Assembly: GCA_030649335.1 (NCBI GenBank)
Contig: JAUSLL010000057.1
Location: forward strand, 1-64,000
Length of the DNA stretch: 64,000 nucleotides
From: Parvibaculum sp.
GTDB lineage: Bacteria; Pseudomonadota; Alphaproteobacteria; Parvibaculales; Parvibaculaceae
Reading direction: 5' to 3'
The notes beneath the pieces are model-generated. The model was not told where the DNA came from. It searched no databases and saw only the letters and a program-made list of their open reading frames with translations. Position numbers and translations under genes: made by a program. Shown here in pieces: positions 27,178 to 42,550 of the stretch. Position 1 is the stretch's first letter. Every line of letters starts with the position of its first letter.

Positions 27178-27201
27178 AGGAATTTAAAGAAGGATCGTCA
27201 T

Positions 27202-27327
27202 GGCCTTATTAGCCCTCTACCTCTGGGAGAGGGTTGGGTGAGGGTCTTTCTTCCGGCGGCCCCACTAATGCAAACAACAAAGTCCCTCACCCTCCGCTCA
27301 CTCCCAACGGGAGAGGGCATAAGGGCC
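27202..27327. repeat. Imperfect long inverted repeat element
   Basis: A left arm (27202-27246, containing GGGAGAGGGTTGGGTGAGGG) and a right arm (27282-27327, containing CCCTCACCCTCC and GGGAGAGGGC) are imperfect reverse complements around a 35-base centre. Each arm also has internal GAGAGGG/CCCTCT complementarity. This is the style of the dispersed CCCTCTCCC/GGGAGAGGG intergenic elements of alphaproteobacteria. It sits between the acyl-CoA dehydrogenase and nitroreductase genes. Confidence 0.7.
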
Positions 27328-27390
27328 TTTGCACACCACACCACGCCCTGCTACCAATCGCGCATTGAAATTTCCCGACCGGAGTTCCCG

Positions 27391-28059
27391 ATGCAGTTCG
27401 ACCAGCTTCTCCATGCCCGCAAATCCGTGCGCGTGTTCAAACCCGATCCCGTACCGCTCGCGCTCGTGGAAGAATTGCTGACACTCGCCAGCCGTGCGCC
27501 GTCCGGCACCAATATTCAGCCGTGGAAAGTGCATGTGGTGGCAGGCGAAGTCCGCGCGCGGCTGGAAGCCGAAGTGCTGGCCCATCGCGAGACGAACCCT
27601 GCCGACGCGGCGGCGGAGTTTCCGCGCATGTCGAAGCGCAAGGAGCCTTACACAACGCGGATGCGGACGCTGGGCAAGGAAATGTATTCGCTGCTGGAAA
27701 TTCCCAAAGGCGATCAGGCCGCGAACTGGGCGCAATGGGGCCGCAACTATAAATTCTTCGATGCGCCGGTCGGGCTGATCTTCACCATCGACAAAGACCT
27801 CGACGCGATGAGCTTTCTCGATATCGGCATGTTCATGCAGACCTTCATGCTGGCCGCCAAGACACGCGGGCTGGACACATGCGCCCAAGGCGCGTGGAAT
27901 AATTTCTGGTCGGTGACGCGGCGCGTGCTCGATGTGTCGGAGGATGAATATATCATCGTCGGCATGTCACTCGGCTATGCGGACGAGACAGCGGCGGTGA
28001 ATACACTGGTCGCCGAACGTGAACCTGTGTCGAGCTTTGCAACGTTTCACGGGTTTTAA
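27391..28059 (+). CDS. Nitroreductase family protein
   Basis: A 222-residue FMN-dependent nitroreductase-fold protein. It opens MQFDQLLHARKSVRVFKPDP, the canonical R-R/K-S-x-R-x-F phosphate-binding start, followed by LASRAPSGTNIQPWKVHVV. The C-terminal half has GLDTCAQGAWNNF and YIIVGMSLGYADETAAVNTL, as in the NfnB/PnbA-like branch. It probably reduces quinones, nitro or unsaturated compounds with NAD(P)H. GGAG seven bases before the ATG at 27391 decides the start. A repeat element separates it from the acyl-CoA dehydrogenase. Confidence 0.87.
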   Translation: MQFDQLLHARKSVRVFKPDPVPLALVEELLTLASRAPSGTNIQPWKVHVVAGEVRARLEAEVLAHRETNPADAAAEFPRMSKRKEPYTTRMRTLGKEMYSLLEIPKGDQAANWAQWGRNYKFFDAPVGLIFTIDKDLDAMSFLDIGMFMQTFMLAAKTRGLDTCAQGAWNNFWSVTRRVLDVSEDEYIIVGMSLGYADETAAVNTLVAEREPVSSFATFHGF

Positions 28060-28062
28060 AAT

Positions 28063-28383
28063 TTAAGGGTGTGGCGCGAAGGGGCTTTTGGGTCCCGGTG
28101 GCTTGAAGCCCTGAAGCACCGTCTCATTGAGCTGTGATTCCATGGACGGCGCTGTGGCACCCGGCACTTCCACACCCATGACAAAGACCGCAGGACCAGA
28201 AGGCCCGACAAACAGCGGCACGGGGTCGGCCATGCCGCCTGCGATACCGGCTGTTGTCACAGTGCCGCCGACATCAATGAGTGTTGACCCTGCCGCAGCG
28301 GCGGCCTCATCGGCGCGTACGGCAAACGGTGCCAGTGACGCGAGCGCGAGAACAACAGTGAAAATGCGGGTTTTGCGGGTCAT
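28063..28383 (-). CDS. Small secreted protein of unknown function
   Basis: A 106-residue protein with a clear signal peptide (MTRKTRIFTVVLALASLAPFAVRADE). The mature part is rich in Gly, Ala, Pro and Val, with no cysteine and no recognised domain, and ends in a Pro/Lys-rich tail. The ATG at 28383 is chosen over the adjacent upstream GTG. It ends three bases from the convergent nitroreductase stop. It is a real gene by its signal peptide, but its role cannot be stated. Confidence 0.6.
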   Translation of the reverse strand: MTRKTRIFTVVLALASLAPFAVRADEAAAAAGSTLIDVGGTVTTAGIAGGMADPVPLFVGPSGPAVFVMGVEVPGATAPSMESQLNETVLQGFKPPGPKSPFAPHP

Positions 28384-28513
28384 CACAGAAATATAGACCT
28401 CGCGCGAGACCGTTCAAGACACAGGCCCCGCATGTTCAGCCCTGTGCCTTGCCAAATGATCGCGCGGGCTTACTCTGCTGCCAAACAAATCAAGCAACGA
28501 CGAGGGACATAAC

Positions 28514-28927
28514 ATGGCTGAATATCCACGCCCCCTCCCCGTGCCGACACCCGAGACACAAGTGTTTTGGGATGGTTGCGCCAGCGGAGAACTGCGCCTG
28601 CAGAAATGCGATGCCTGCGCGCATACCTATTTTCCGCCGCGCGCATTTTGCCCCGCCTGTTCGGGCCGCAAGGTGACGACGTTCAAAGCGTCCGGCAAGG
28701 CGACGCTTTATTCCTATGTCATCAACCACCGCCCGCGCCCTGACTTCGGCACCGAGCCGCATTCCATCGCCGTGGTGACGCTGGCTGAAGGCCCGCGCAT
28801 GATGACCAATATCATCGACTGCCCGCAGACGCCCGAGGCGCTGCAACTCGACATGGCGCTGGAAGTGACTTTCGAGAAAGCCAGCGAGACGATCAGCCTG
28901 CCCAAATTCCGTCCGGCCAAAGGATAA
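28514..28927 (+). CDS. DUF35 zinc-ribbon/OB-fold protein (thiolase partner)
   Basis: A 137-residue protein. An N-terminal rubredoxin-like zinc ribbon (CDACAHTYFPPRAFCPAC) is followed by an OB-fold (KATLYSYVINHRP to LAEGPRMMTNIID). DUF35 proteins accompany SCP-x/ChsH-type thiolases and hydratases and bind the CoA part of the substrate. The adjacent thiolase starts only four bases after its stop, which strongly supports a complex between the two. Confidence 0.87.
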   Translation: MAEYPRPLPVPTPETQVFWDGCASGELRLQKCDACAHTYFPPRAFCPACSGRKVTTFKASGKATLYSYVINHRPRPDFGTEPHSIAVVTLAEGPRMMTNIIDCPQTPEALQLDMALEVTFEKASETISLPKFRPAKG

Positions 28928-28931
28928 TCCC

Positions 28932-30074
28932 ATGAAACAGAAATCAGTGGCCGTTGTCGGTGCAGCCGAGACAACAAACATGGGCAAGATCCCGGATCAA
29001 TCCGTGATCGGACTACATGCGGACGCGGCGCTGAACGCCATGCGCGACGCGGGCCTGACGGCGAAAGACATTGACGGCGTGGCGACTGCGGGCGAAAGCC
29101 CTGTGGAGCTGGCTCATTATCTCGGCATCACACCGACATGGGCCGATGGCACCAGCGTCGGCGGGTGCTCCTTCATGCTGCATGTCCGCCATGCGGCAGC
29201 CGCCATCAACGAGGGCCTGTGCAACACGGTGCTGATCACCCACGCCGAAAGCGGACGCTCGCGCGTCGGCGCCCGCAAATTCGGGCGTGATCCGGCAAGC
29301 CAGATGGGCCAGTTTGAAGTGCCCTTCGGTGTCACTTCGCCGCCCACCATGTTCACCATCCCCGTGCTGCGCTACATGAAGGAAATGGGCGTGACGGAGG
29401 AAGACCTTGCGATGGTCGCAGTCATCCAGCGCGAATGGGCGGCAAAGAACCCGCGTGCCTCGTTCAAAGACCCGATCACGGTGGACGATGTGCTGAACTC
29501 GTCGATGATCGCCTGGCCCTTCCGCAAACTCATGTGCTGCCTCGTCACCGACGGCGGCGGCGCGCTGATCCTGACGAGCGCCGAACGCGCGAAAGACTTT
29601 CCGCAGAAGCCAGTTTACATCCTCGGCACAGGCGAAAGCGTTGAGACGCCGATGGTGAGCCAGATGGAAGATTTCACAACATCGAAAGCCTTCCGCGTGT
29701 CCGGCAAGAAAGCCTTTGAAGAAGCGGGCATCAAACACGATGACGTTGACCATCTGATGATCTATGACGCCTTCGCGCATCTGCCGCTGTTCGGGCTCGA
29801 AGATCTGGGCTTTGTGAAACGCGGCGAGGCGGCTGCCTTCATCCGCGAACGCAATACGGCCATCGGCGGCAAGTTGCCCCTGAACACCAATGGCGGCGGG
29901 CTGTCCTATATGCATTCGGGCATGTATGGCATGTATGCGCTGCAGGAAAGCATCCGCCAGATGCGCGGCATTGCACCGGCACAGGTGCCCGGCGCGAAAA
30001 TCTCCATCGCGCATGGTGTCGGCGGCATGTTCGCGGCATCCGGCACGATTATCTTTTCGAACGAGAAGCCGTAA
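28932..30074 (+). CDS. SCP-x-type thiolase family protein
   Basis: A 380-residue thiolase-fold protein of the sterol-carrier-protein-x/acetyl-CoA acetyltransferase branch. The likely nucleophile is Cys79 in SVGGCSFML. The C-terminal half has NTNGGGLSYMHSGMYGMYAL and the SIAHGVGGMFAASGTI loop. Such enzymes perform thiolytic or retro-aldol-like side-chain cleavage together with a DUF35 partner, which lies directly upstream. Together with the nearby acyl-CoA dehydrogenase and nitroreductase it suggests degradation of a branched or cyclic acid. Confidence 0.87.
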   Translation: MKQKSVAVVGAAETTNMGKIPDQSVIGLHADAALNAMRDAGLTAKDIDGVATAGESPVELAHYLGITPTWADGTSVGGCSFMLHVRHAAAAINEGLCNTVLITHAESGRSRVGARKFGRDPASQMGQFEVPFGVTSPPTMFTIPVLRYMKEMGVTEEDLAMVAVIQREWAAKNPRASFKDPITVDDVLNSSMIAWPFRKLMCCLVTDGGGALILTSAERAKDFPQKPVYILGTGESVETPMVSQMEDFTTSKAFRVSGKKAFEEAGIKHDDVDHLMIYDAFAHLPLFGLEDLGFVKRGEAAAFIRERNTAIGGKLPLNTNGGGLSYMHSGMYGMYALQESIRQMRGIAPAQVPGAKISIAHGVGGMFAASGTIIFSNEKP

Positions 30075-30094
30075 CCAAAAAGAAGAGGCCGAAA

Positions 30095-30781
30095 ATGAAC
30101 CTTGCCAAGCCCCGCATCGACATCGGCCTCTTCACCAACAATCACGAACCGATGCTCGCCTTCTATCAAAACGAGGTGGGCCTTCCCTTCGATCACGCGC
30201 TGCCGCTCGGCAAGGGGCAGATGCAGCATCGCCATGATCTTGCGGGATCGGTGCTGAAGATCAACGCAAGCCGCACACCCTTCGAGGAGACGCCCGCCAC
30301 CGGCTACCGCGAAATCCTGATCGCGCGTGACGGGCTGCTCGGGCCGAAGTCGATGCAGGACCCAGACGGCAATAAAGTGACACTGGTGCCGCGCGGATTG
30401 TTCGGCATTGAGCAGATCGGCATCCGGCTGAAAGTGCGCGACGTCAATGCGCACCGGCGTTTCTATGCGCTGAGCCTCGGCCTGCCCGATGTACCCGAGG
30501 AAGGCGGCGACAGTTTTTATTGCGGTGAGAGCGTCATCATGGTCGAGCATGGCGGCGATGCGCCCGACGATGCATCGCTGAACGGCACAGGTCTGCGCTA
30601 CATCACGGTGCAGGTGTTTGATTCAGATATGGAATACGAGGGCATTTTGAAGCGCGGGGGCGGCGAAGGCTATCCGCCGCGCACATTGGGCGAGGTTGCC
30701 CGCTTCGGCTTTGTCCGCGACCCGGACGGCAACTGGATTGAAATATCGCAGCGGTTCTCGCTGGTCGGCAAACCGAAATAG
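30095..30781 (+). CDS. VOC (glyoxalase/extradiol dioxygenase fold) protein
   Basis: A 228-residue protein with two vicinal-oxygen-chelate modules: residues 1-110 (IDIGLFTNNHEPMLAFYQNEVGLPF to MQDPDGNKVTLV) and 111-228 (IGIRLKVRDVNAHRRFYALSLGLP to VRDPDGNWIEISQ). The D-P-D-G-N loop occurs in both halves. VOC members include isomerases, lyases and dioxygenases; no specific one is indicated. It follows the thiolase gene by 20 bases and is probably in its operon. Confidence 0.8.
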   Translation: MNLAKPRIDIGLFTNNHEPMLAFYQNEVGLPFDHALPLGKGQMQHRHDLAGSVLKINASRTPFEETPATGYREILIARDGLLGPKSMQDPDGNKVTLVPRGLFGIEQIGIRLKVRDVNAHRRFYALSLGLPDVPEEGGDSFYCGESVIMVEHGGDAPDDASLNGTGLRYITVQVFDSDMEYEGILKRGGGEGYPPRTLGEVARFGFVRDPDGNWIEISQRFSLVGKPK

Positions 30782-30808: not shown

Positions 30809-32206
30809 TCAGCGCGTCGTGATACGACGGCGCAATTCGTCCGGTACAAACATTGAGTCTCTCAACTCATCGGCATTGAAGTTGATACCAACTTCCTCGT
30901 TCTTGAGGTTCTGCACGACATAGCGGCCTTCCACGAGATCATAGACCACGTCGGACGCGTTGAAGCAGGTCGGTACGTCATAATAAGTGATGATCTGGGC
31001 TTCCTGCACACGCCACAAGCCGCCGCGCGCATCATAAAGCTCACCACCCACCATATTGCCGCCATCCTCATCGAAATAGGCAACACGACGGCTGTAGACA
31101 TGACGTTCGGTCGGCTTCAGCACAGCTTCAACCGACCAGACGCGGTGTTTTTCATAGCGCACCAGATCCTGATTGATATGGCCGGGCTGGATGATGTCTT
31201 TATATTTGAGCGTGGGCGACGAAAGCTTGTAGGAATTATACGCGACAAGACGTTCTTCCTTGCCGAGCACGGTCCAGTTGTAATGATCCAGAGGTCCGCT
31301 GAAGACGTCGAAACTATCGGCGGTGGACATGGCGTCTGAATAAATCTGCGGATTGTCGTAATTGACCGCGCTGGTGCGCTGCACGCGTGGCGCAGAAGTC
31401 GCATTGCCGGTCGTGTATTGCCACGAACGCCGCTCACCTAGTTTCGGATCAACGGTTTCGTGCACCAACAACAACTGGCCAGCACGACGCGCAGGCGCGA
31501 GCGTTTCCTGAATGTAGCGCACCGACACATTCTCGAGCGCCTTGAACGACCTGTTGTCGGGTGAGGCATAATCGAAAATGGCCTCGTCCTTGACGATGAC
31601 CGGCGTGAACGAGCCCGTGCGCGTCGGGGCGGCAGACGCAAAGGTGCGCGCCATCTTGTAACCGCGATAACGCAGATTATGGTTCCAGGCGATTTCATAG
31701 GCGTCAAACGGCAGCGGATAGGGAATACCCATCAGGATGCCGGAAAGACTGTCGCCACCACCGCCGAGCGCAGCGGTCTTGGCGTTTTCCTTAGTCGCAT
31801 CGTAAACAGCCTGCGGCAAGGCGCAGGTGCGGCGCGACTGATAGACATTGAGCTTATAATCGGGATAGGCCGCCATCATGGCTTTCTGGCCCGGTGTCAG
31901 CAGGTCGCCATGTTGGGCAGCATTGCCTTTGTTCACGGTGTAAAGCACAGGATCGGAGGCGAAGGGGTCCGGATAATAGCCGTCGCCCTTGAAGCCGATA
32001 CCGTCCGGTGCCGACGTCAAACCGCCGGTCCATGCCGGAATTGAGCCGTCGGCGTTACCCGCCTTTTCCGCGCCCATTGGCGTTAAATCCTGCCCCAAAC
32101 GCGCAATTTGCGCCTCCGGCACCCCCGCCCATGCCGCCGTCAGGCCAGCAATGGACGCAAACACTCCCCCTGCCGCAACCGCGACAATCAACCTCGAAAC
32201 ACGCAC
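30809..32206 (-). CDS. DUF1329 periplasmic/outer-membrane-associated protein
   Basis: A 465-residue exported protein. GTG at 32206 has GGAG six bases upstream and begins a signal peptide (VSRLIVAVAAGGVFASIAGLTAAWA). The mature protein has DUF1329 landmarks: IPAWTGGL near the start, YPDYKLNVYQSRRTCALP, and DVPTCFNASDVVYDLVEGRYVVQ near the end. DUF1329 resembles LolB/LolA-like lipid-binding folds and is frequently found with RND exporters and outer-membrane barrels. It is divergent from the COG1033 RND gene, sharing a 147-base promoter region. Confidence 0.85.
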   Translation of the reverse strand: MRVSRLIVAVAAGGVFASIAGLTAAWAGVPEAQIARLGQDLTPMGAEKAGNADGSIPAWTGGLTSAPDGIGFKGDGYYPDPFASDPVLYTVNKGNAAQHGDLLTPGQKAMMAAYPDYKLNVYQSRRTCALPQAVYDATKENAKTAALGGGGDSLSGILMGIPYPLPFDAYEIAWNHNLRYRGYKMARTFASAAPTRTGSFTPVIVKDEAIFDYASPDNRSFKALENVSVRYIQETLAPARRAGQLLLVHETVDPKLGERRSWQYTTGNATSAPRVQRTSAVNYDNPQIYSDAMSTADSFDVFSGPLDHYNWTVLGKEERLVAYNSYKLSSPTLKYKDIIQPGHINQDLVRYEKHRVWSVEAVLKPTERHVYSRRVAYFDEDGGNMVGGELYDARGGLWRVQEAQIITYYDVPTCFNASDVVYDLVEGRYVVQNLKNEEVGINFNADELRDSMFVPDELRRRITTR

Positions 32207-32353
32207 CCGAGCTCCCCCCAAACAAAATTGATTAACTCCCTTTACTAAGTCTGGCCCATCCTTCCGCAAAGGGCTAGCCTTTGTGAAAATAAAACAGGGG
32301 TCTGGAAAACGTAACGTTTGCAGACCGGGGGACCTGATCCGGGGGGATGTTGC

Positions 32354-34693
32354 GTGCGGGCCGTTGAATTTATTGTCTTCAAGGCAAGACTGCTGATCCT
32401 TGTCTTGCTGGCCGCCTTTACGGCGGTGATGGGCTATTACGCCCTCCAGCTCAAGATGGAAGCCGGCTTTTTAAAGCAGGTGCCCACCAACCATGAATAT
32501 GTCCAGACCTTCCTGAAATATCAGGACGAGGTGCCCGGCGCGAACCTGATCCTGGTCGCGGTGAAAGCCCGCGACGGCACGATCTGGAACCCCGCCTTCC
32601 TCAAGCGTCTGAGCGAAGTGGCCGAAGAAGTGACATTTCTTCCCGGCGTGCGCCGCACGACTGTGCACTCGCTCTGGTCCACCACCACACGCGTGACGGA
32701 AAACACCGAGGAAGGCATCAACTCCTATCCCGTGGTGCCGCGCAATGTGACGGCCAATTCGCTGACGCAGGAAGACGCGGACGTGATCCGCGACCGTGCG
32801 CTCAACGGCGGCCACAAGGGCTATCTTATTTCCAACGACCAGACGGCGGCACTGATCATCGCCGAGTTGCAGGAAATCGACCCTGTGTCGCGCGAAAAGC
32901 TCGATTATCTCGATCTTGCCGCGCGGCTGGAAAAACAGGTCCGCGAAAAATTTGAAGACGACAAGACGCAAATCGAAATCGTCGGCTTTGCAAAATTCAT
33001 CGGCGATATTGCTGACGGCGCAAGCTCGGTCTTTATTTTCTTCGTGCTGGCCTTCGTGCTGACGACCCTTGCGGTCTATGTCTTTGTCCGCTCGGTGCAG
33101 TTGACGTTCCTTGCTGTCTTCTGCTCGCTCGTTTCCGTCGTCTGGCAATTCGGCCTGCTACATCTGATGGACCGCAGCCTTGATCCGCTGGCTGTCCTCG
33201 TGCCTTTCCTCGTCTATGCCATAGGCGTGAGCCACGGTGTGCAGCAGATCAACATGATCGCCACAGGCGTGAGCGGCGGACAGACACATTATGAAGCGGC
33301 ACGCTCGACCTTCAGCCGCTTGCTGTTGCCGGGTTCGCTCGCGCTCATCACCGATCTTGTGGGCTTTGCGACGCTCTATCTCATTCCGATTGAAGTCATT
33401 CAGGACCTCGCCATCATGGCGTCGCTCGGCGTGGCACTGAAGATTGTCACCAATCTCATCATGCTGCCGCTGATCGCCTCTTATCTGCGTTTCGATCCGG
33501 GCTTTTCTGCACGCTATCTCAACTGGAAGCGGACACCGGAAAGCGTCATGCGTTTTGTCGGCCGCGTCGCGCGGCCGCGCAATGCGAGCATCGTGCTCAT
33601 CATATTCGTCTGCCTGCTGGGCCTTGCCGCACAGGAAACCCGCCAGCGCCATATCGGTGATCTGACACCTGGCTTTTCCGAACTCTGGCCGGATGCACGC
33701 TACAACACCGACATTGCCGACATTGTGGAACGCTTCTCCATCTCGGCCGACGCGCTGATCGTCGTCGTTGAAACACCGCCGGACGCCTGCATCGATTATA
33801 AAACGATGCTGCTTGTTGATCGCTTCTCCTGGGCAATGCGCAATGTGGACGGCGTGAACTCGGTGCGCTCGCTGCCCAAATCAGTGCGCGACACCGCCGC
33901 CATTTGGCGCGAGGGCAATCTCAAATGGGTGGGCCTGCCGCATTCGCAGACCGAACTCATCCAGATGACCTCGCCTTTCGATCCAAGCTCGGGCCTGCTG
34001 AACGAGACCTGTACGGTGCTCCCTGTTGTCATCTATATGAACGACCACAAGGCCGCTTCCATTGAGACAGTGATTGCGGCGGTGAAAGAATTTGCCGCCA
34101 CCGATCCGCAGGCGGTTGCCCGCGACGATGTCAATTTCCGTCTCGCCATGGGCGGTATCGGCATTATGGCCGCGACCAATGATGTGATCGAAGCCAATGA
34201 ACTACCGATGTTGTTCTGGGTTTATTTCGCGATCATCGTGCTGGTCTGGCTCGCCTATCGTGACTGGCGCGCCATCGTCTGCTGCTGCATGCCGCTGCTG
34301 CTGGCGACCTTCCTCGGCTATTGGTTCATGACCGCGCTCGAAATCGGCCTCAAGGTCTCCACCCTGCCCGTGCTGGTGCTCGCCACCGGCATCGGCGTCG
34401 ATTATGCCTTCTATATCTACAGCCGCTTGCAGGTGCTTCTGGATGAAGGCATGGCGATGGCGGATGCCTATGTGCTGGCCTTGCAGCAAATCGGTGTGGC
34501 GGTTGTCTTCACCGGTCTCACCCTGTCGGTCGGCGTCTCGTCCTGGGCCTTCTCCGGCCTCAAGCTGCAGGCAGATATGGGGCTGCTGCTGTCTTTCATG
34601 TTCCTCGTCAACATGATCGCGGCCATTGTCTTCCTGCCCGCCTTTGCGGTCATTCTTGATCGAATATTTCCGCGTAAGGCTTCCATCGGCTAG
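32354..34693 (+). CDS. COG1033-type RND/MMPL lipid or hydrophobe exporter
   Basis: A 779-residue RND-superfamily protein with two repeats of one helix plus a periplasmic loop plus five helices. Features include AVEFIVFKARLLILVLLAAF at the start, VPFLVYAIGVSHGVQQINM in repeat one and TGIGVDYAFYIYSRLQ in repeat two, where the acidic residue likely carries the proton relay. This short RND type (sterol-sensing-domain-like, as in HpnN/MmpL) moves lipids or hydrophobic compounds. GTG at 32354 after GGGGGGA is chosen; the upstream TTG is weaker. It is divergent from DUF1329. Confidence 0.87.
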   Translation: MRAVEFIVFKARLLILVLLAAFTAVMGYYALQLKMEAGFLKQVPTNHEYVQTFLKYQDEVPGANLILVAVKARDGTIWNPAFLKRLSEVAEEVTFLPGVRRTTVHSLWSTTTRVTENTEEGINSYPVVPRNVTANSLTQEDADVIRDRALNGGHKGYLISNDQTAALIIAELQEIDPVSREKLDYLDLAARLEKQVREKFEDDKTQIEIVGFAKFIGDIADGASSVFIFFVLAFVLTTLAVYVFVRSVQLTFLAVFCSLVSVVWQFGLLHLMDRSLDPLAVLVPFLVYAIGVSHGVQQINMIATGVSGGQTHYEAARSTFSRLLLPGSLALITDLVGFATLYLIPIEVIQDLAIMASLGVALKIVTNLIMLPLIASYLRFDPGFSARYLNWKRTPESVMRFVGRVARPRNASIVLIIFVCLLGLAAQETRQRHIGDLTPGFSELWPDARYNTDIADIVERFSISADALIVVVETPPDACIDYKTMLLVDRFSWAMRNVDGVNSVRSLPKSVRDTAAIWREGNLKWVGLPHSQTELIQMTSPFDPSSGLLNETCTVLPVVIYMNDHKAASIETVIAAVKEFAATDPQAVARDDVNFRLAMGGIGIMAATNDVIEANELPMLFWVYFAIIVLVWLAYRDWRAIVCCCMPLLLATFLGYWFMTALEIGLKVSTLPVLVLATGIGVDYAFYIYSRLQVLLDEGMAMADAYVLALQQIGVAVVFTGLTLSVGVSSWAFSGLKLQADMGLLLSFMFLVNMIAAIVFLPAFAVILDRIFPRKASIG

Positions 34694-34752
34694 ACTGAGT
34701 TCCCATATGGCATTCAGAAAAAACTGAATCCAACGCCCTAGGGGGACACGTC

Positions 34753-35361
34753 ATGCTCAAGGTCTATCACGCACCCAACACACGCTCGCTCCGTGTTCTC
34801 TGGCTGCTGGAGGAACTGGGCGCGTCTTATGAACGCGCAACGGTAGAATTCACGCCTGCCTATCTGCAATCGCCGGAACATCTGGCGCTGCATCCGCTGG
34901 GCAAACTGCCGGCGGTGGATGATGACGGGCTGATCCTGAACGAGTCCGGCGCCATTGTTCAATATATCCTCGCCAAACACGCAGGCAGCCATTTGGAGCC
35001 GAAGCTCGGCACGCCCGTCTATGGCAAATACCTGCAATGGCTGCATTTTGCCGAAGCGACAGTTATGCCGCCCGTATCGCAGGTCGTGCAGCACTCGTTC
35101 CTCAAGCCCAAGGAAGAACGCATTCCGGCTGTGGTGGACGACGCCAAGGCAACGCTCGCAAAACTGTTTGCCCTGATGGAGCGCGAATTGAAGGGCAAGA
35201 CCTTCATCTGCGGTGATGACTTCACCGCCGCCGACATCATGCTGGGTTACGATCTCAACCTGTGCAAACTGATCCAGATTTCCTTTGCGGATTATCCCAA
35301 CGTCACGGCTTACTTCGACTGCCTGACAGAACGCCCCGCCTTTAAAAAAGCCGTGGGCTGA
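34753..35361 (+). CDS. Glutathione S-transferase
   Basis: A 202-residue GST. The thioredoxin-like N-domain includes YHAPNTRSLRVLWLLEELG, KLPAVDDDG and the glutathione-binding NESGAIVQYI. The helical C-domain has FICGDDFTAADIMLGYDL, the conserved N-capping box of GSTs. Tyr5 or Ser12 is the probable catalytic residue. It may conjugate or isomerise a hydrophobic substrate. The TauD-family dioxygenase starts eight bases after its stop, so they are likely cotranscribed. Confidence 0.88.
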   Translation: MLKVYHAPNTRSLRVLWLLEELGASYERATVEFTPAYLQSPEHLALHPLGKLPAVDDDGLILNESGAIVQYILAKHAGSHLEPKLGTPVYGKYLQWLHFAEATVMPPVSQVVQHSFLKPKEERIPAVVDDAKATLAKLFALMERELKGKTFICGDDFTAADIMLGYDLNLCKLIQISFADYPNVTAYFDCLTERPAFKKAVG

Positions 35362-35369
35362 GAAACACC

Positions 35370-36209
35370 ATGACCGCCATTGCCATTCATCCGATTTCAG
35401 GTGCGCTGGGCGCGGAAATTTCCGGCGTTGATCTGTCGCGCGAATTGAGCAACGGCGAATTTGACGCCGTGCATCAGGCCTTTCTCGATCATCAGGTGAT
35501 TTTCTTTCGTGATCAGCACCTGAGCCACGATCAGCACAAGGCTTTTGCACGGCGCTTCGGCACACTCAACATCCATCCTTACGTGAAGGGCATGGACGCG
35601 CATCCCGAGATCATGCAGATCATCAAGGAGCCCGATGACCGTGTGAATTTCGGCGGCGGCTGGCATTCCGATATGTCGTTTCTCGAAGAACCGGCATTGG
35701 GCTCATTGCTCTATGCCAAGCAGGTGCCGCCCTATGGCGGGGATACGCTGTGGGCCAACCAATACCTCGCCTATGAGACGCTGTCGGACGGCATGAAGGA
35801 AATGCTCGGACGCCTCAAAGCCGTGCACACAGCCAAGGGCGAGTATAGCGAGCGCGGCCATTCCGCCCAGAAGCGCGGTGCGATGGACGTGAAAACAGCG
35901 GGCGATGATGTGCCCTCATACGAACAACCCGTCGTGCGCACGCATCCCGAAACAGGGCGCAAGGCGCTTTATGTAAACCCCGCTTTCACGGAAAAATTCG
36001 TCGGCATGACGCGGCGCGAAAGCCTGCCGCTGCTCAATTATCTCTTCGATCATTGCACGCAGGAAGGCTTTACCTGCCGCTTCCGCTGGTCAGTGAACAC
36101 GCTCGCTTTTTGGGATAATCGCTGCACGCAGCATTTTGCGCTCAATGATTATCACGGCCACCGCCGCCATATGGAACGCGTAACTGTGAACGGCGATAAG
36201 CCTTTCTGA
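35370..36209 (+). CDS. TauD/TfdA-family Fe(II)/2-oxoglutarate dioxygenase
   Basis: A 279-residue non-heme iron dioxygenase. The facial triad is His99 and Asp101 in GGGWHSDMSF, plus His255 in CTQHFALNDY; Arg266 in GHRRHMERV should bind 2-oxoglutarate. Members hydroxylate taurine, alkyl sulfates, phenoxyacetates and related compounds using oxygen and 2-oxoglutarate. Substrate residues cannot be assigned by eye. It follows the GST gene and precedes the LolA-like/barrel pair by 91 bases. Confidence 0.88.
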   Translation: MTAIAIHPISGALGAEISGVDLSRELSNGEFDAVHQAFLDHQVIFFRDQHLSHDQHKAFARRFGTLNIHPYVKGMDAHPEIMQIIKEPDDRVNFGGGWHSDMSFLEEPALGSLLYAKQVPPYGGDTLWANQYLAYETLSDGMKEMLGRLKAVHTAKGEYSERGHSAQKRGAMDVKTAGDDVPSYEQPVVRTHPETGRKALYVNPAFTEKFVGMTRRESLPLLNYLFDHCTQEGFTCRFRWSVNTLAFWDNRCTQHFALNDYHGHRRHMERVTVNGDKPF

Positions 36210-36300
36210 CGGGTTTTAGAGATAAACCGCATAATCTTTCCTTTAAATCCGGCCCCGGCCCGTGCATCATCGCGCCCGTAAACTTTGGGAGTGGCGTGTG

Positions 36301-37137
36301 ATGATCCGTGTACAGGTTTGTGGTGTTTTGTTATCGGCTGCCTTGGCCCTGACTGTGGGCCTGCCCGCGCCTCAGGCGCATGCCGAAGCCGCAGGACTGC
36401 CGGCCACGTCCGCGCCTGCCGACCGCGGGACCGCCATCGCCATCGAAAACGACAAACGCGACAAAGGCTGGGGCGATGCCCGCGCCGACATGAAGATGGT
36501 GCTGACCAACGCGTCCGGCGAAACAAGCGAGCGCAGCTTGCGCTTTATGATGCTGGAAAACCCCGAAGCAAATGACGGCAACTGGAGCCTGATGACCTTC
36601 GACCGTCCGCGCGACATTGAAGGCACGGCGCTGCTGACCTATGCCCACCACAACGAAGCCGACGACCAGTGGCTCTATCTGCCTGCGGTGAAACGCGTGA
36701 AGCGCATTTCATCGTCAAACAAAGCGGGGGCTTTCGTCGGCAGCGAATTCGCCTTCGAAGATTTCTCAACGCAGCAGATGAGCAAGTTCGAATATATGTG
36801 GCTCCGCGACGAACCATGCGGCACGCTGCAATGCCATGTGGTGGAGCGCAAACCGCTCTACGAAGCATCGGGCTATACGCGCGAACTCGCATGGATCGAC
36901 ACCACCGATTATCAGTTTCGCAAAATCGATTATTACGACCGCAAGGACGCGCTGCTGAAAACGCTGACGCTCGACAATTATACTTTGTACGAAAATAAAT
37001 TCTGGCGGCCGCTTGAGCTGACCATGACGAACCATGAGAGCGGCAAGGCGACGAAATTGATCTGGACGGCCTATGCCTTCCGCACCGGCCTCACGAAAGA
37101 TGATTTCTCCACCGCGAGCCTGGAGCGTGCGCGTTGA
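36301..37137 (+). CDS. LolA-like outer-membrane lipoprotein-sorting-type periplasmic protein
   Basis: A 278-residue exported protein. A signal peptide (MIRVQVCGVLLSAALALTVG to AHA) precedes a LolA-like half-barrel domain of the kind found next to COG1033 RND exporters (PF17131-like). Typical stretches are NWSLMTFDRPRDIEGTALLTY, DDQWLYLPAVKRVKRISSSNKAGAFVGSEFAFED and REDxxxxCHVVERKP-like sequence around residues 175-195. The ATG at 36301 has GGGAG ten bases upstream. It is translationally coupled to the barrel gene. It presumably shuttles a hydrophobic ligand across the periplasm. Confidence 0.82.
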   Translation: MIRVQVCGVLLSAALALTVGLPAPQAHAEAAGLPATSAPADRGTAIAIENDKRDKGWGDARADMKMVLTNASGETSERSLRFMMLENPEANDGNWSLMTFDRPRDIEGTALLTYAHHNEADDQWLYLPAVKRVKRISSSNKAGAFVGSEFAFEDFSTQQMSKFEYMWLRDEPCGTLQCHVVERKPLYEASGYTRELAWIDTTDYQFRKIDYYDRKDALLKTLTLDNYTLYENKFWRPLELTMTNHESGKATKLIWTAYAFRTGLTKDDFSTASLERAR

Positions 37138-38345
37138 GCCATAAGCCCATATGGGCGCTGGCCGCGATCTTCATGGCGGCACCGGCTTATGCCCCCGCCT
37201 ATGCAGATGATCTGGGTTTGCGCGGCACGATCACGCCGGAAATCCGGCTCTTTCCGCAAGATCCAAGCGGCGCGAAACAAACAAACAGCGATCTGTCTGT
37301 TTCCGCCGAAGTGACTGCCAAATATTTTTTCGGTGCGGGCGGCAATCAATCCATCATCGTGACGCCTTTCGGTCGGCTCGATCAACGCGACCACAACCGC
37401 ACGCATTGGGACCTGCGCGAGGCGCGCTACGGGATCGTGGCGGGCGCTTGGGAATTGCGCGTCGGCTTCGACAAAGTCTTCTGGGGCGTGACCGAAGCGG
37501 TCCACCTTGTCGATGTCATCAATCAGGCCGACCTCCTCGAAGACCCGATCAAACAGGAGGTGCGCCTCGGCCAGCCGATGGTGCGGCTGCGCACGACGCA
37601 AAGTTTCGGCACGTTTGATTTTTTCCTGCTGCCCTATTTCCGCGAGCGCACTTACCCCAGCATTGACGGGCGACCCGCGACCGATATTCCTGTGGCGGGC
37701 GACCTCGCCACATATGAGAGCAGCCGCAAAGCGCGCCATGTGGATGCCGCCGTGCGCTACTCAAACAATTTCGGCGACATTGATCTGGGGCTTTCCTATT
37801 TTCAGGGCACGGGGCGCGACCCGATCCTCGCCCCCGCGCTCGACGCAAGCGGCTCGCTGGTGCTGGCGCCCTTCTATGCGCAGATCAAACAAAGTTCGTT
37901 CGATGTGCAGGCCACCAAAGGCGCATGGCTCTTCAAGGCGGAAGGCTATTGGCGCGACGAACTGGACCAGCAATATGAAGCGGCGACCGGCGGCATTGAA
38001 TATACGTTTTACGGGATCGCGGGCACGGAAAGCGACTTAGGCGTCGTCGCCGAATATGCGCTCGACAGCCGCGGCATGGTTGCCCGCGCGCCTTATCAGA
38101 ACGACGGCTTTCTCGCCTTGCGCTGGACCGCCAATGACGCGGCCTCGACAAGCCTGCTCGCAGGCATGGTGGTGGACGCCAGCACCGGCGCCCGCGGCTT
38201 CCGCTTCAAGGGTGAACGGCGGCTCGACGAGGATTATCACCTCTCGGTCGAAGCCTATGCCTTCGGCGATGTGCCGCAGAGTGACCCCGTCTACAGCGTT
38301 GCAGACGATGACTATTTGCAGATCCGTCTCGCGCGCTACTTCTGA
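37134..38345 (+). CDS. Outer-membrane beta-barrel protein
   Basis: A 403-residue exported protein. A signal peptide ending AYAPAYADD is followed by alternating amphipathic strands, and the last residue is phenylalanine (IRLARYF), the usual BAM recognition signature. The start is a TTG overlapping the previous stop as TTGA, with GGAG eight bases upstream, so expression is tied to the LolA-like protein. A family name is uncertain; DUF1302-like barrels occupy the same place in related loci. It may receive the hydrophobic cargo handled by the RND exporter and LolA-like protein. Confidence 0.75.
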   Translation: MSHKPIWALAAIFMAAPAYAPAYADDLGLRGTITPEIRLFPQDPSGAKQTNSDLSVSAEVTAKYFFGAGGNQSIIVTPFGRLDQRDHNRTHWDLREARYGIVAGAWELRVGFDKVFWGVTEAVHLVDVINQADLLEDPIKQEVRLGQPMVRLRTTQSFGTFDFFLLPYFRERTYPSIDGRPATDIPVAGDLATYESSRKARHVDAAVRYSNNFGDIDLGLSYFQGTGRDPILAPALDASGSLVLAPFYAQIKQSSFDVQATKGAWLFKAEGYWRDELDQQYEAATGGIEYTFYGIAGTESDLGVVAEYALDSRGMVARAPYQNDGFLALRWTANDAASTSLLAGMVVDASTGARGFRFKGERRLDEDYHLSVEAYAFGDVPQSDPVYSVADDDYLQIRLARYF

Positions 38346-38348
38346 GAC

Positions 38349-41300
38349 TTAATGCGCGGTGGCTGTCGCTGCGGCCGCTTCCGCGCGCCGCTGCTGCCAG
38401 AGCTTCACCAATAGATAGACCGTCGGCACGACAAAGAGCGTGAGCAATGTGCCGAAGCTCATGCCGCCGACAATGACCCAGCCAATGGCCTTGCGGCTTT
38501 CGGCACCCGCCCCTGAACTCAGAGCAAGAGGTGCTGCACCCAGCACCATCGCACCTGTCGTCATCAGGATCGGACGCAGGCGCAGACCGGCGGCTTCAAT
38601 GACCGCTTCCAGAACACTGCGGCCCTGATCGCGCAACTGATTGGAAAACTCCACTATCAAAATGCCGTGCTTCGTGATGAGGCCGACAAGCGTGATGAGA
38701 CCGACCTGACTATAGATGTTCATCGTCGTATTGGTGATGACCATCATGGCAAGTGCACCGGCAATCGACAGCGGCACACTGATCATGATGATGAACGGGT
38801 CGAGGAAACTTTCAAACTGAGCCGCCAGCACCAGATAAATGAAGACCAGCGCCAGAACAAAGGTGGCCGCCAAAGTACCCGATGATTTGACGAATTCGCG
38901 CATGCCGCCATCCACATCGGTTCTAACTGTGACGGGCAAAATTTCCTTTGCCGTCTTCTCCATGAATTTCAACGCCTCACCCATCGAATACCCCGTCGCG
39001 AGATTGGAGGTGATGGTGGCCGAGCGGAACTGGTTGAAGTGATTAAGCGAATCCGGTGCGACGGTTTCCTTCACCGTCACAAGGTTCGACAATTGCACCA
39101 TCTTGCCCGAAGCCGAACGCACATAGATGTCAGAAATGTCGTTCGGTGTGCGCCGGTCATCGTCGCCCACCTGAATGATCGCGTCGAACTGTTTGCCCTT
39201 TTGCTCAAACCGCGTCGCCTTGCGCCCGCCAAGGAAAGTCTCGAGCGTGCGGCCAACGGTGGCCACATCAATACCCGCGTCGATCACCTTGTCGCGGTTG
39301 ACCTGAATGTCGATCTGCGGCTTGTCGAGATGAAGGTCGGTGTCGGGAAAGACAAAGCCCTGATTTTTTCGCACCTTGTCCATCATGCGCTCGACGTAAT
39401 GCTCAAGATCATCGTAAGTGCCGGACGTCTGGATGACGAACTGGACAGGCTGCGAGCGCGAGCTTTGACCAAGCGATGGCGGATTGATCGCAAAAGCGAG
39501 AATGCCGGGAATATCTTTCAACTCACCGTTCACGCCCTCAACGATCTCTTTTTGCGTGCGTCCCCGATCACCCCAAGGCTGGAGAAGCGAGAAGGAAATG
39601 AGATTGGTGATCTGCGGGAAGCCGGAGACAACGAGATAACCTTGCACTTCCGGCACCTTGGAAATCACGCCCTCGACCTCACGCGCATAACGCTGCGTGA
39701 ACTGCAGCGTCGCCCCTTCTGGCGCACGACCGGCGATCATCAGGAAACCACGATCTTCAAGCGGCGCAAGCTCCTGATTGAGCACAAAGAACAGGCCGAC
39801 GCAGGACAGCGCCACACAACCCGCCGCGATGAGCACGGCACGCGATTTCTGCAACACATCGCTCAGCGTGCGCTTGTAAGCAGCATCCAACTGATCAAGC
39901 TTCTCACCGAGCACACGCTCGAACGTGCCGGACGACGCCTTGTGTCGCAACAGGCGCGAGCAAAGCATGGGCGTGAGCGTCAGCGCCATGAAGCCTGACA
40001 CGAGCACGGCGGAGGCGAGCGTCAACGCAAATTCGAGAAAGAGTTTGCCTGTGCGGCCCGTAGCAAAAGCCACCGGCGCGTAAACCGCCACCAGCGTCAG
40101 CGTCATGGAAATCACGGCAAAGGTAATTTCCTTGGACCCTTTGATCGCACCTTCGATGGGCGTCATGCCGTTTTCGATATGACGGTAAATATTTTCAAGC
40201 ACAACAATGGCGTCATCCACCACCATGCCGATGGCAAGCACCATCGACAACAAGGTCAACGTGTTGATGCTGAAGCCAAACGCAAACATAAGACCGAAAG
40301 TGCCGATGAGCGACACAGGGATCGTGACCACCGGAATAAACGAGGCACGCAAGGTCCTCAAAAAGAAGAAAATGACGAGCACGACGAGCACAGTGGCCTC
40401 GGCGATTGTCTCGTAAACCGACTTGATGGATTCCTCGATGAAGACCGAACTGTCAAAGCCCACGTAAGAACTCATGCCGGCGGGCAGATTGGGCGCCATC
40501 TCGTCGAGCGTGGCGCGCACGGCCTTGGAAACTTCAAGCGGATTGGCGGTCGCCTGTTTGACGATACCGATAGAGATAGAAGGCACACCATTATAGGTCG
40601 CACCGCGACGCACATCAGCCGCCGCTATCTCGATCTTGGCGACATCGCGCAAACGCACCTGATAATCGCCCGACTGTTTGACGACAATTTGGCCGAACTC
40701 TTCGGGCGTGGAGAGCGCCGTCTTGGCCAGCACTGTGAATTCACGATCCTTGCTTTCAATACGGCCTGAGGGAATTTCGGCGTTCTGCTGACGTACCGCG
40801 TTTTCAATGTCTTGCGCGGTCAGCTCGTATGCGGCAAGCCTTGCGCGGTCGAGCCAGATTCGCATCGAATAAAGACGCTCGCCAAAAATGAGAACCTGCG
40901 CGACACCCGGCTGGTTCTGCATCTGGTTTTTGACAACGCGGTCGAGGTAGTCGGTGATGTCGAGTTCGGACATGCGGTCCGACATAAAGGCGATGAACAT
41001 GATCGGCTGAGCATCAGCCTCGACCTTAGCGATGATCGGCTCGTCAATCTCGTCCGGCAACAAGCCGCGCACGCGACCAACACGGTCACGGATGTCACTG
41101 GCGGCGACATTGGGATCTGTTTCGAGCGTGAAGCGCGCAGTGACCTGCGACTGTTCAGGACGACTGGCCGACGACAGCACTTCGATGCCTTCAATGCCGG
41201 CAATGGATTCTTCAAGCGGCTGCGTGACTTCGCGCTCGATAACGGAAGCACTGGCACCGCGATAATTCGTGGTGATGGTAACGACCGGCTCATCAATGGT

Positions 41301-41414
41301 GGGATATTCGCGCACCGTCAGACGTTCATAGGAAACCGCACCGACAAGAACGAGGATGAGCGCGACGACTGTGGCAAAGACAGGACGACGAATGAAGAGT
41401 TCTGAAATATGCAT
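38349..41414 (-). CDS. RND multidrug-efflux permease (AcrB/MdtBC family)
   Basis: A 1021-residue inner-membrane proton/drug antiporter. It starts MHISELFIRRPVFATVVALI and has the paired acidic residues in helix 4 (GMVVDDAIVVLENIYRHIE, near residue 405), two large periplasmic loops and 12 helices. The second half carries VYLVLAAQFES-like and LITKHGILIVEFSNQLRDQG motifs. Length and order match AcrB/MexB-type permeases. No outer-membrane TolC gene is adjacent. It lies 11 bases downstream of its adaptor gene in the same operon. Confidence 0.93.
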   Translation of the reverse strand: MHISELFIRRPVFATVVALILVLVGAVSYERLTVREYPTIDEPVVTITTNYRGASASVIEREVTQPLEESIAGIEGIEVLSSASRPEQSQVTARFTLETDPNVAASDIRDRVGRVRGLLPDEIDEPIIAKVEADAQPIMFIAFMSDRMSELDITDYLDRVVKNQMQNQPGVAQVLIFGERLYSMRIWLDRARLAAYELTAQDIENAVRQQNAEIPSGRIESKDREFTVLAKTALSTPEEFGQIVVKQSGDYQVRLRDVAKIEIAAADVRRGATYNGVPSISIGIVKQATANPLEVSKAVRATLDEMAPNLPAGMSSYVGFDSSVFIEESIKSVYETIAEATVLVVLVIFFFLRTLRASFIPVVTIPVSLIGTFGLMFAFGFSINTLTLLSMVLAIGMVVDDAIVVLENIYRHIENGMTPIEGAIKGSKEITFAVISMTLTLVAVYAPVAFATGRTGKLFLEFALTLASAVLVSGFMALTLTPMLCSRLLRHKASSGTFERVLGEKLDQLDAAYKRTLSDVLQKSRAVLIAAGCVALSCVGLFFVLNQELAPLEDRGFLMIAGRAPEGATLQFTQRYAREVEGVISKVPEVQGYLVVSGFPQITNLISFSLLQPWGDRGRTQKEIVEGVNGELKDIPGILAFAINPPSLGQSSRSQPVQFVIQTSGTYDDLEHYVERMMDKVRKNQGFVFPDTDLHLDKPQIDIQVNRDKVIDAGIDVATVGRTLETFLGGRKATRFEQKGKQFDAIIQVGDDDRRTPNDISDIYVRSASGKMVQLSNLVTVKETVAPDSLNHFNQFRSATITSNLATGYSMGEALKFMEKTAKEILPVTVRTDVDGGMREFVKSSGTLAATFVLALVFIYLVLAAQFESFLDPFIIMISVPLSIAGALAMMVITNTTMNIYSQVGLITLVGLITKHGILIVEFSNQLRDQGRSVLEAVIEAAGLRLRPILMTTGAMVLGAAPLALSSGAGAESRKAIGWVIVGGMSFGTLLTLFVVPTVYLLVKLWQQRRAEAAAATATAH

Positions 41415-41425
41415 GAATACCGCCC

Positions 41426-42550
41426 TCAGCCTTTATGTGCTGAAGCAGCATCGTCGCTTGCAGGAACATCAGTGGCGGCTGGTTTTTCTTCACGCAGGAA
41501 CACCTGATCGTCGGGACGGACTTTGAGCTGCCCCGCCGTCACAATCCGCTCACCCGCGTTGACACCCGAGCGCACTTCAATCTCGCCAGCCAGACGCTCG
41601 CCGATCTCGATGGGACGCAATTCTGCGTGAAGCCCCGCCTCGCCTTTATCGACAACCACAAAGACCGCCTTCTCGCCGGTCTTTTGCGGCACAAGCGCGC
41701 TTTCAGGCAGAACCACCGAATGGCGCGTGGCCGTGACGATGTTTACGCGACCGAAAATGCCCGGACGCAGCTTGCCGCTTTCATTGGTCAGCGCGGCACG
41801 CACGCTGATGGCGCGGCCCGAAACGTCGATGACGGGATCAATGGCGGTGATGGCCCCCTGGAATGTTTCACCGGGCAGCGCGTCAAACGTCACACTGACG
41901 ATCTGGTCTTTGGAAATTTCAGTGAGATAGGTTTCCGACACACGGAAGTCGATACGCAGGTGGTCCACATCAGCAAGCGTCGCAATGGGATCGCCAGCCT
42001 TGAGATATTGGCCAAGGCTCACCTGACGCAGGCCGATGAGGCCGGCAAAAGGCGCAACAATATTGGCCTTGTCGAAATCAGCATTGGCGGCGGCGAGATC
42101 GGCCTCGGCGGAACGAAGGTCGTTGAGCGCTTCGTCAAGAGCGCGCTCGGTGCCGGAACCCTGTTTGCGCAACCGCTGGGCGCGGTCAAAATTGGCGCGC
42201 GTCAAGGTTACACGTGCTTGAGCCTGCATCTGATGAGCTTTGAGAGAACCTGAATCGATTGACACAATCATGTCGCCCTGTGCGAGGCGCTGGCCATCGA
42301 CAAAATCAATGCTGGTGACAATGCCATTAATCTCGGAACTGACAACAATTGACTGGTCGCCATCCAGCGTGCCGAGCGCAGAAATTTCAACCTGCACGTC
42401 GCGTTTTGCAGCCAGAACGGATTCGATTACCGGCGGCGGCGGCGGGCCCATGTCGTGGCCGCCAACAAGGCGCCATACGACGAGCCCGAGAAATGCCACG
42501 CCAGCCACCGCACCCACACCAATCGCGGTGTTCTTGTTCAATTTCGCCAT
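41426..42550 (-). CDS. RND periplasmic adaptor (membrane-fusion protein)
   Basis: A 374-residue MFP. One N-terminal signal/anchor helix (GVGAVAGVAFLGLVVWRLVGG) precedes a Pro-rich linker. The lipoyl half-motifs are GIVTSIDFVDGQRLAQGDMIVSID and FAGLIGLRQVSLGQYLKAGDP, flanking an alpha-helical hairpin. Beta-barrel and membrane-proximal domains follow. It bridges the RND permease to an outer-membrane channel. It is the first gene of the operon; its promoter lies within the 283-base gap that it shares with the divergent PAP2 gene. Confidence 0.92.
   Translation of the reverse strand: MAKLNKNTAIGVGAVAGVAFLGLVVWRLVGGHDMGPPPPPVIESVLAAKRDVQVEISALGTLDGDQSIVVSSEINGIVTSIDFVDGQRLAQGDMIVSIDSGSLKAHQMQAQARVTLTRANFDRAQRLRKQGSGTERALDEALNDLRSAEADLAAANADFDKANIVAPFAGLIGLRQVSLGQYLKAGDPIATLADVDHLRIDFRVSETYLTEISKDQIVSVTFDALPGETFQGAITAIDPVIDVSGRAISVRAALTNESGKLRPGIFGRVNIVTATRHSVVLPESALVPQKTGEKAVFVVVDKGEAGLHAELRPIEIGERLAGEIEVRSGVNAGERIVTAGQLKVRPDDQVFLREEKPAATDVPASDDAASAHKG

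Follow-up and report, generated by a model that had tools for sequence, protein, structure and literature searches.

The passage of hydrophobic compounds such as alkanes, surfactants, haem-like compounds and lipids across the Gram-negative envelope is largely an open matter outside the Lpt, Lol and Mla pathways. The locus considered here, at positions 30,809 to 38,345 of a 64,000-nucleotide stretch of Parvibaculum DNA (the window; contig JAUSLL010000057.1 of assembly GCA_030649335.1), holds parts of two putative carriers of such compounds: a DUF1329 protein with a transporter of the resistance-nodulation-division (RND) superfamily, and a LolA-like periplasmic protein with an outer-membrane barrel. 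Systems built from comparable parts have been described. For the first pair, deletion of AmeABCD in Castellaniella defragrans, a system of DUF1302, DUF1329, YCF48 and RND proteins, lowered monoterpene tolerance and increased Nile Red accumulation (PMC6394551). In Pseudomonas putida the DUF1302 and DUF1329 genes PP_0765 and PP_0766 were needed on Tween 20, and PP_2018 and PP_2019 were described as a correlated periplasmic protein and RND efflux transporter (PMC10866462); a DUF1329-YCF48-MMPL cluster was highly expressed in a benzene-degrading culture (PMC13101534). For the second pair, TOL_3187 of Thalassolituus oleivorans, which combines MMPL and LolA-like parts in one protein, and the adjacent porin TOL_3188 rose strongly on C28 alkane (PMC6304351), and operons of Porphyromonas gingivalis and Prevotella intermedia annotated as TetR, MMPL, lipoprotein-sorting and hypothetical proteins responded to iron or haemin (PMC10434189, PMC10470040).

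The window derives from a metagenome-assembled genome of 3.54 Mb and 92.8% completeness (genus Parvibaculum, Parvibaculaceae, Alphaproteobacteria), which is G000 in a set of 25 Parvibaculum genomes (G000 to G024); its contig is denoted C51. A sequence-only reading had proposed that six neighbouring genes form a joint hydrophobe-trafficking pathway, and domain searches and coordinates confirm its gene positions and families, the divergence of the RND and DUF1329 genes, the TTGA through which the barrel start overlaps the LolA stop, the C-terminal Phe of the barrel, and the span of the parts from inner membrane through periplasm to outer membrane. The features are as follows.

30809 to 32269, minus strand: DUF1329 protein, periplasmic carrier of module 1 (PF07044, E=2.1e-129; weak PF17131, E=2.7e-4), with an N-terminal hydrophobic segment and assigned to the LolA-fold superfamily
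32270 to 32317, no strand: 48-base intergenic region between the divergent listed starts of the DUF1329 and RND genes, computed from the listed start codons
32318 to 34693, plus strand: RND/MMPL (HAE3-like) inner-membrane transporter of module 1, termed RND3 (PF03176, E=5.5e-18; TIGR00921, 150 bits)
34753 to 35361, plus strand: glutathione S-transferase (GST)-like protein (PF02798, E=4.2e-19)
35370 to 36209, plus strand: TauD/TfdA-type Fe(II)/2-oxoglutarate dioxygenase (PF02668, E=7e-72)
36262 to 37137, plus strand: LolA_like periplasmic carrier of module 2 (PF17131, E=1.5e-55)
37134 to 38345, plus strand: outer-membrane barrel of module 2 (family profile A2, 40-member alignment, barrel model)

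The listed starts of the DUF1329 (TTG), RND (TTG) and LolA (GTG) genes are probably upstream of the true ones, without consequence, the true LolA_like start probably being an ATG near 36304; the 48 intergenic bases probably hold promoters. Below, RND-L denotes the usual RND of the LolA-barrel pair and RNDX a genus-wide paralogue of RND-L.

The LolA-barrel pair of the window constitutes the final part of a TetR-RND-LolA-barrel operon that occurs across Pseudomonadota, with the RND and TetR genes missing. A search of the class gave 53 barrel places, nine of which were not read with wide flanks; the loci read were 40 outside Parvibaculum together with those of G027 and G031, plus two Parvibaculum places, and with L112 and L117 set aside (contig ends beside the barrel) 40 informative loci outside Parvibaculum remained. 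RND-L, LolA and barrel occur together in 31 of these, three of them in Parvibaculaceae, the gene order deviating in L136 and L137. In a sample of the phylum, LolA relatives were found in 68 of 299 genomes; of the 20 regions retrieved, 19 came from among the 33 matches scoring above 250 bits, and two belong to the class of the window. RND, LolA and barrel were present at all 20, each also matched by the barrel profile (L172, the match below that score, differs in gene order and scores weakly for the barrel, and in L161 only the end of the RND is visible, at a contig edge). TetR is not universal in these operons elsewhere. A LolA-like gene followed by a barrel gene is not new as such; in the mostly open-access literature searched, no description of the RND-LolA_like-barrel operon as a system was found, only expression lists and annotations.

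Within Parvibaculum, the LolA of the window was found in 24 of the 25 genomes, the exception being G002, and the barrel follows it directly in 23 of the 24 (in G012 the contig ends there). RND-L, of about 780 amino acids, precedes LolA in eight of the 24, being incomplete in G004 and cut by the contig in G023, and a TetR-type regulator accompanies it in six of the eight. In the other 16, the genome of the window included, RND-L was found neither at the LolA locus nor elsewhere, and the best match to it is the RNDX paralogue at 35-39% identity (39% in the window genome, on contig C78), with none in G020, which is 57% complete. Completeness is below 90% in G009, G011, G020 and G021 among the 16, and the group also includes the single-contig genome G013 (3,914,745 bases), which we take to be P. 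lavamentivorans DS-1. In the window genome TetR is likewise absent from the locus, and the window gave no match at 1e-4 to the TetR of G014.

The orphan pair, as judged from substitution ratios, is functional and under strong purifying selection. Pairwise ratios of nonsynonymous to synonymous substitution rates (dN/dS, Nei-Gojobori) for LolA and barrel were 0.042-0.163 without RND-L (six genome pairs, 12 comparisons) and 0.020-0.122 with RND-L (four genome pairs, eight comparisons), three comparisons with dS above 1 being less reliable; between G019, which lacks RND-L, and its close relative G014 the values were 0.116 and 0.071. The low ratios in the absence of RND-L indicate that pump loss did not free the LolA-barrel pair from selection.

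The surroundings of the pair point to an old neighbourhood. In the sister genus g18 (G150, G041) a single stretch carries acyl-CoA dehydrogenase, nitroreductase, OB-fold protein and thiolase genes, divergent DUF1329 and RND3 genes, and then TauD, radical SAM, TetR, RND-L, LolA and barrel genes, with a few small open reading frames interspersed, and in the sister genus g19 (G232) GST, TauD, TetR, RND-L, LolA and barrel genes are found, with no RND3-DUF1329 in the stretch read. Since the g18 stretch holds both modules, the neighbourhood is old and the window presents a reduced version of it, the sister-genus layout being the likely ancestral one. Insertion of LolA-barrel beside RND3 was considered at first and dropped, as both modules share one neighbourhood in the sister genera; loss of TetR and RND, followed by later rearrangement or transfer, is therefore more likely. 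The flank that lies upstream of TetR and RND-L in G014 is present in G019 too, where neither gene follows it. In the LolA-barrel tree 15 pairs without the RND form one clade (support 1.00) and G019 stands with G014 (1.00), from which at least two losses of RND-L would follow if loss is the process. An RPE65-type oxygenase lies within the neighbourhood in the sister genera (L149:6684-8000 and L151:8977-10269) and has no match in the window.

The six genes themselves are together in seven of the 24 LolA-bearing Parvibaculum genomes (G000, G006, G007, G009, G011, G013, G024), strictly adjacent in four, while in G007, G013 and G024 a radical-SAM gene, kept there without TetR and RND-L, separates TauD from LolA. 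Co-occurrence of the six, which the sequence-only reading had put forward as a check, is therefore found, and much of the set is together in the sister genera as well; the single pathway of all six that it envisaged is rejected, since presence and absence follow blocks of genes. DUF1329 with RND3 and LolA with barrel assort separately, and the two enzyme genes are variably present, GST being missing at the locus in G003, G005, G015 and G020 and TauD in G018 and G021. RND3 orthologues of at least 74% identity occur in 12 of the 25 genomes (74-86% in the 11 besides that of the window). Among 16 Parvibaculum genomes searched for both, DUF1329 was found in exactly the nine having RND3, and the seven lacking RND3 gave no match at E<=1e-150; at host loci read in other genomes both genes were present in G017, G022 and G024 and both absent in G016, G018, G020 and G021. 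A 131-residue fragment in G021, 62% identical to RND3, was scored as absent since the host locus of that genome is without RND3. From this joint presence and absence, DUF1329 and RND3 are one unit and LolA-barrel is a separate one.

With regard to fold and family, the AlphaFold model of LolA matches 3bk5 (E=2.9e-24, TM 0.72/0.82), the P. gingivalis LolA3 structure 9tp6 and the DUF1329-family structure 4z48, all three of which the LolA_like profile also finds by sequence, and each of the DUF1329 and LolA_like proteins also hits the Pfam model of the other (E=2.7e-4, below the model cut-off, and 6.6e-9). On these relationships both periplasmic proteins are placed in the LolA-fold superfamily; for the DUF1329 protein of the window a sequence search gave no relative of solved structure. 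For the barrel neither Pfam nor NCBIfam gave a convincing match. Its family (profile A2) is present in 49 of 289 sampled genomes of the class and shows a strongly conserved KVFWGVTEx-HLVDIINQTD-VE...KLGQPM signature in the 40-member alignment; this stretch corresponds to residues 114-146, where the model has low confidence, and may form a loop turned inward or a plug. AlphaFold predicts a barrel of many strands, with a mean predicted local distance difference test score (pLDDT) of 60 and Foldseek matches to porins and AlgE, which at this medium confidence say 'barrel' and nothing finer. The window barrel does not match PF06980 (DUF1302), 3 of 40 family members do so (best in L144, a locus without LolA, E=6.7e-6, 25.8 bits against a cut-off of 23.2), and profile-profile comparisons of the two families were not significant. 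A pattern shared with DUF1302, R-G-(K/Q)V-WG-(S/T)-(I/V)N-D, is suggestive. Both modules may thus descend from one three-part design, in which the place of the barrel is conjectural.

Module 1 resembles the AmeB/AmeD part of the monoterpene exporter. As in AmeABCD, the DUF1329 gene of the window adjoins and is co-inherited with an MMPL/HAE3-like RND gene, of 12 hydrophobic segments by a Kyte-Doolittle script, and catabolic genes lie around; unlike in AmeABCD, the DUF1329 and RND genes are divergent, the locus has no DUF1302 barrel or YCF48 protein, and RND3, while recognised by PF03176, matches the HAE3 model TIGR00921 only partially, its 150 bits falling short of the cut-off of 351.9. No PF06980 match was present on contig C51, with five on other contigs of the genome, and no YCF48-type protein was present among the scanned locus proteins, a YCF48-like gene being on contig C99. 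The DUF1302 protein of contig C56 was considered as a trans partner of the DUF1329 protein and rejected by its distribution, as it has matches of 36-47% at best in the RND3-bearing genomes G001, G009, G011, G012, G017 and G022 and of 55-76% in 14 other relatives, many of them without RND3. A 67-amino-acid frame resembling the end of DUF1329 was also noted on contig C42 (3291-3476). RND3 would take a hydrophobic compound from the inner membrane in a proton-driven manner and hand it to the LolA-fold DUF1329 protein, and no outer-membrane partner of the module is encoded at the locus. The P. putida genes likewise link DUF1329 to an RND and offer a precedent for barrel and carrier at one locus and pump at another; in contrast to the window, the barrel there is of the DUF1302 family, another family being present here, and the function is tied to growth on Tween 20.

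Module 2 shares with the Pseudomonadota operon a LolA_like gene followed by a barrel gene of the KVFWG...LGQPM family, and differs from it in having neither RND nor TetR. The likeness to TOL_3187 and TOL_3188 is one of published description, not of sequence, and the MMPL and LolA-like parts are fused in TOL_3187. The Bacteroidota operons have, by their annotation, the same part types and order as TetR-RND-LolA-barrel, yet they belong to another phylum, are listed with ABC transporter genes, and retain the RND that is missing in the window. A hydrophobic cargo would be held in the groove of LolA_like and passed to or from the barrel. The hydrophobe theme of the sequence-only reading is sustained by the LolA-fold carriers and by the reports of comparable systems tied to hydrophobic compounds, and a hydrophobic cargo may be regarded as their common thread. 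For Ame, export has the better support as direction, and uptake by the orphan pair is possible. The suggested likeness to Lol or Mla found no such backing: the LolA_like model has the predicted LolA fold, whereas the gene association of the family is with an RND rather than with the Lol ABC transporter, no MCE or ABC domain was present among the locus proteins scanned, and no connection of the locus with Mla or with the Lol ABC transporter was found.

Taken together, it is rather probable that the locus descends by reduction from an old Parvibaculaceae neighbourhood in which two hydrophobe carriers, modules 1 and 2, stood beside a catabolic set, and that module 2 now operates with an RND in trans or pump-free. 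LolA and barrel would then work with another RND encoded elsewhere, RNDX being the nearest in sequence, or provide a route from periplasm to surface without a pump. Several observations weigh against this interpretation, in which cargo, direction and partner have to be inferred. Support is 0.33 at the node that connects the RND-less clade with the other members of the family, so that the number of losses is uncertain. The LolA-barrel tree and the host-locus tree disagree for G001, G012, G017 and G022; the host loci of G001, G017 and G022, which were fully read, are without LolA-barrel, and a complete operon that groups with g18 is found elsewhere in these genomes. Plain loss may accordingly be mixed with old paralogy, or with a horizontal re-acquisition in which the orphan pair disappeared. 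No Parvibaculum genome has more than one LolA match, and hence none carries both the orphan pair and a complete operon; the LolA-barrel-RND operons of the four discordant genomes (L042-L044, L055, L071-L074) group with the sister genus. Nine of the 40 class loci are incomplete or rearranged: L126 has no LolA, L127, L128, L133, L140 and L144 have a barrel without LolA or RND-L (L128 with an RNDX-like RND), L139 and L142 have LolA-barrel with no RND-L in the fetched stretch, and in L145 RND-L is nearby on the opposite strand. A relative of RND-L at 43-54% identity is present in seven of ten such or related genomes, which is not so in the 16 Parvibaculum genomes. LolA relatives below 250 bits were sampled once, and the association with an RND may not hold for them; confidence in the two AlphaFold models, that of LolA and that of the barrel, is medium (pLDDT about 60); and where RND-L is missing RNDX is not shifted towards it (35-39% identity, against 36-39% where RND-L is present).

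A wider proposal, held tentatively and with clearly less confidence, is that LolA_like-barrel forms the outer half of RND hydrophobe carriers, a half that can be exchanged and that has become uncoupled in Parvibaculum while fully retained by selection, where it would serve RNDX or RND3 in trans or act as a pump-free gate, and that RND-LolA-barrel and RND-DUF1329-DUF1302 systems are relatives of one ancestral design comprising an MMPL pump, a LolA-fold carrier and a DUF1302-like barrel. We know of no earlier natural example of such uncoupling of a carrier-barrel pair from its pump.

That the pump has been swapped, with RNDX on contig C78 of the window genome serving the orphan pair in trans, is possible but on balance doubtful. 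RNDX is the sole match above 30% identity to RND-L in the 16 genomes without the latter, being present in 15 and not in the 57%-complete G020, and neither LolA nor barrel is near it in three 20-kb stretches (L068, L075, L076). It lies at L068:6849-9203, beside phosphatidylserine decarboxylase, CDP-alcohol phosphatidyltransferase and PilZ-like genes, and such lipid-gene neighbours would point to a lipid cargo. Homologues of the PilZ-like gene accompany RND-L-LolA-barrel in L124 and L125, and in L128 an RNDX-like RND with a barrel; this neighbourhood link is a lead, not proof, comprising three loci, two of them from one genus. The absence of any shift of RNDX towards RND-L counts against the swap too, and RNDX is equally present alongside RND-L, which means that there is no association with its loss.

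It is rather unlikely that LolA and barrel dispense with a pump altogether and passively exchange hydrophobic compounds between periplasm and surface, for instance when hydrophobic growth substrates are taken up. LolA and barrel persist without RND-L, also where RND3 is absent, and a comparable system is alkane-induced; in L139 and L142, from another family, the stretch retrieved shows LolA-barrel and no RND, although the genomes concerned keep RND relatives elsewhere, and association with an RND is the rule outside Parvibaculum.

Improbable, again, is a hybrid in which RND3 and DUF1329 pump into LolA and barrel as one mixed system from inner to outer membrane. The two halves are complementary in the window, whose contig has no DUF1302 match, the sequences of DUF1329 and LolA_like are related, and a distant kinship of the barrel with DUF1302 is possible (the 3 of 40 members noted above). 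All 12 RND3-bearing Parvibaculum genomes have the LolA gene, which says little given that 24 of the 25 genomes have it. However, g18 carries RND3-DUF1329 beside a complete RND-LolA-barrel set, and eight of the 16 genomes without RND-L are also without RND3 and yet retain LolA-barrel. RND3 is equally frequent in the two groups, in 8/16 genomes without RND-L and 4/8 with it (Fisher p=1, a guide only since the genomes are related), and within the RND-L-less clade it is patchy while LolA-barrel is retained; RND3 is therefore not an obligatory partner, although some genomes may have a hybrid. RND3-DUF1329 as a replacement pump was rejected for want of association with the absence of RND-L. A special branch of the Lol pathway, in which LolA_like would sort lipoproteins to the outer membrane with the barrel as client or receptor, is very improbable: the LolA fold, the name in the family annotation and the hydrophobic groove in the related P. 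gingivalis LolA3 crystal structure (9tp6; PMC13103446) speak for it, but the usual gene partner is an RND, LolA3 bound P. gingivalis LolB only weakly (PMC13103446), and deletion of LolA3 in Flavobacterium johnsoniae left gliding and amylase secretion unaffected.

GST and TauD are more likely conserved neighbours of metabolic function than pump parts. Their genes are separated by 8 bases in the window and adjoin in g19 also, and TauD stands upstream of LolA-barrel or TetR-RND-LolA-barrel in Parvibaculum and the sister genera. The flanking genes, identified by domain matches and synteny and assigned to neither module, are as follows.

25942 to 30781, plus strand: acyl-CoA dehydrogenase, nitroreductase, ChsH2-type OB-fold protein, thiolase and VOC genes, upstream neighbours
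38349 to 42550, minus strand: AcrB-type RND (PF00873, E=5.1e-298) and membrane-fusion protein (HlyD_D23), convergent to the barrel

The conserved upstream genes resemble a degradation pathway for a CoA-activated hydrophobic compound. The AcrB-type RND and membrane-fusion pair is kept beside the barrel in 13 of the 16 Parvibaculum loci without RND-L.

These results correct the view of the RND next to DUF1329 as the regular partner of LolA-barrel: the usual one is RND-L, which is missing here. The conserved and unnamed RND-LolA-barrel operon (31/40 class loci, 20/20 phylum-sample loci) is a candidate machine for the passage of hydrophobic compounds, and the interest of the locus lies in the naturally occurring separation of LolA-barrel from its pump rather than in any new pathway of six genes. 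Parvibaculum is an environmental genus with a cultured type strain. As it offers natural cases in which the pump is missing and carrier and barrel are kept, the role of LolA-barrel without its RND is directly testable, and the locus provides a natural test of whether such machines swap pumps or dispense with them.

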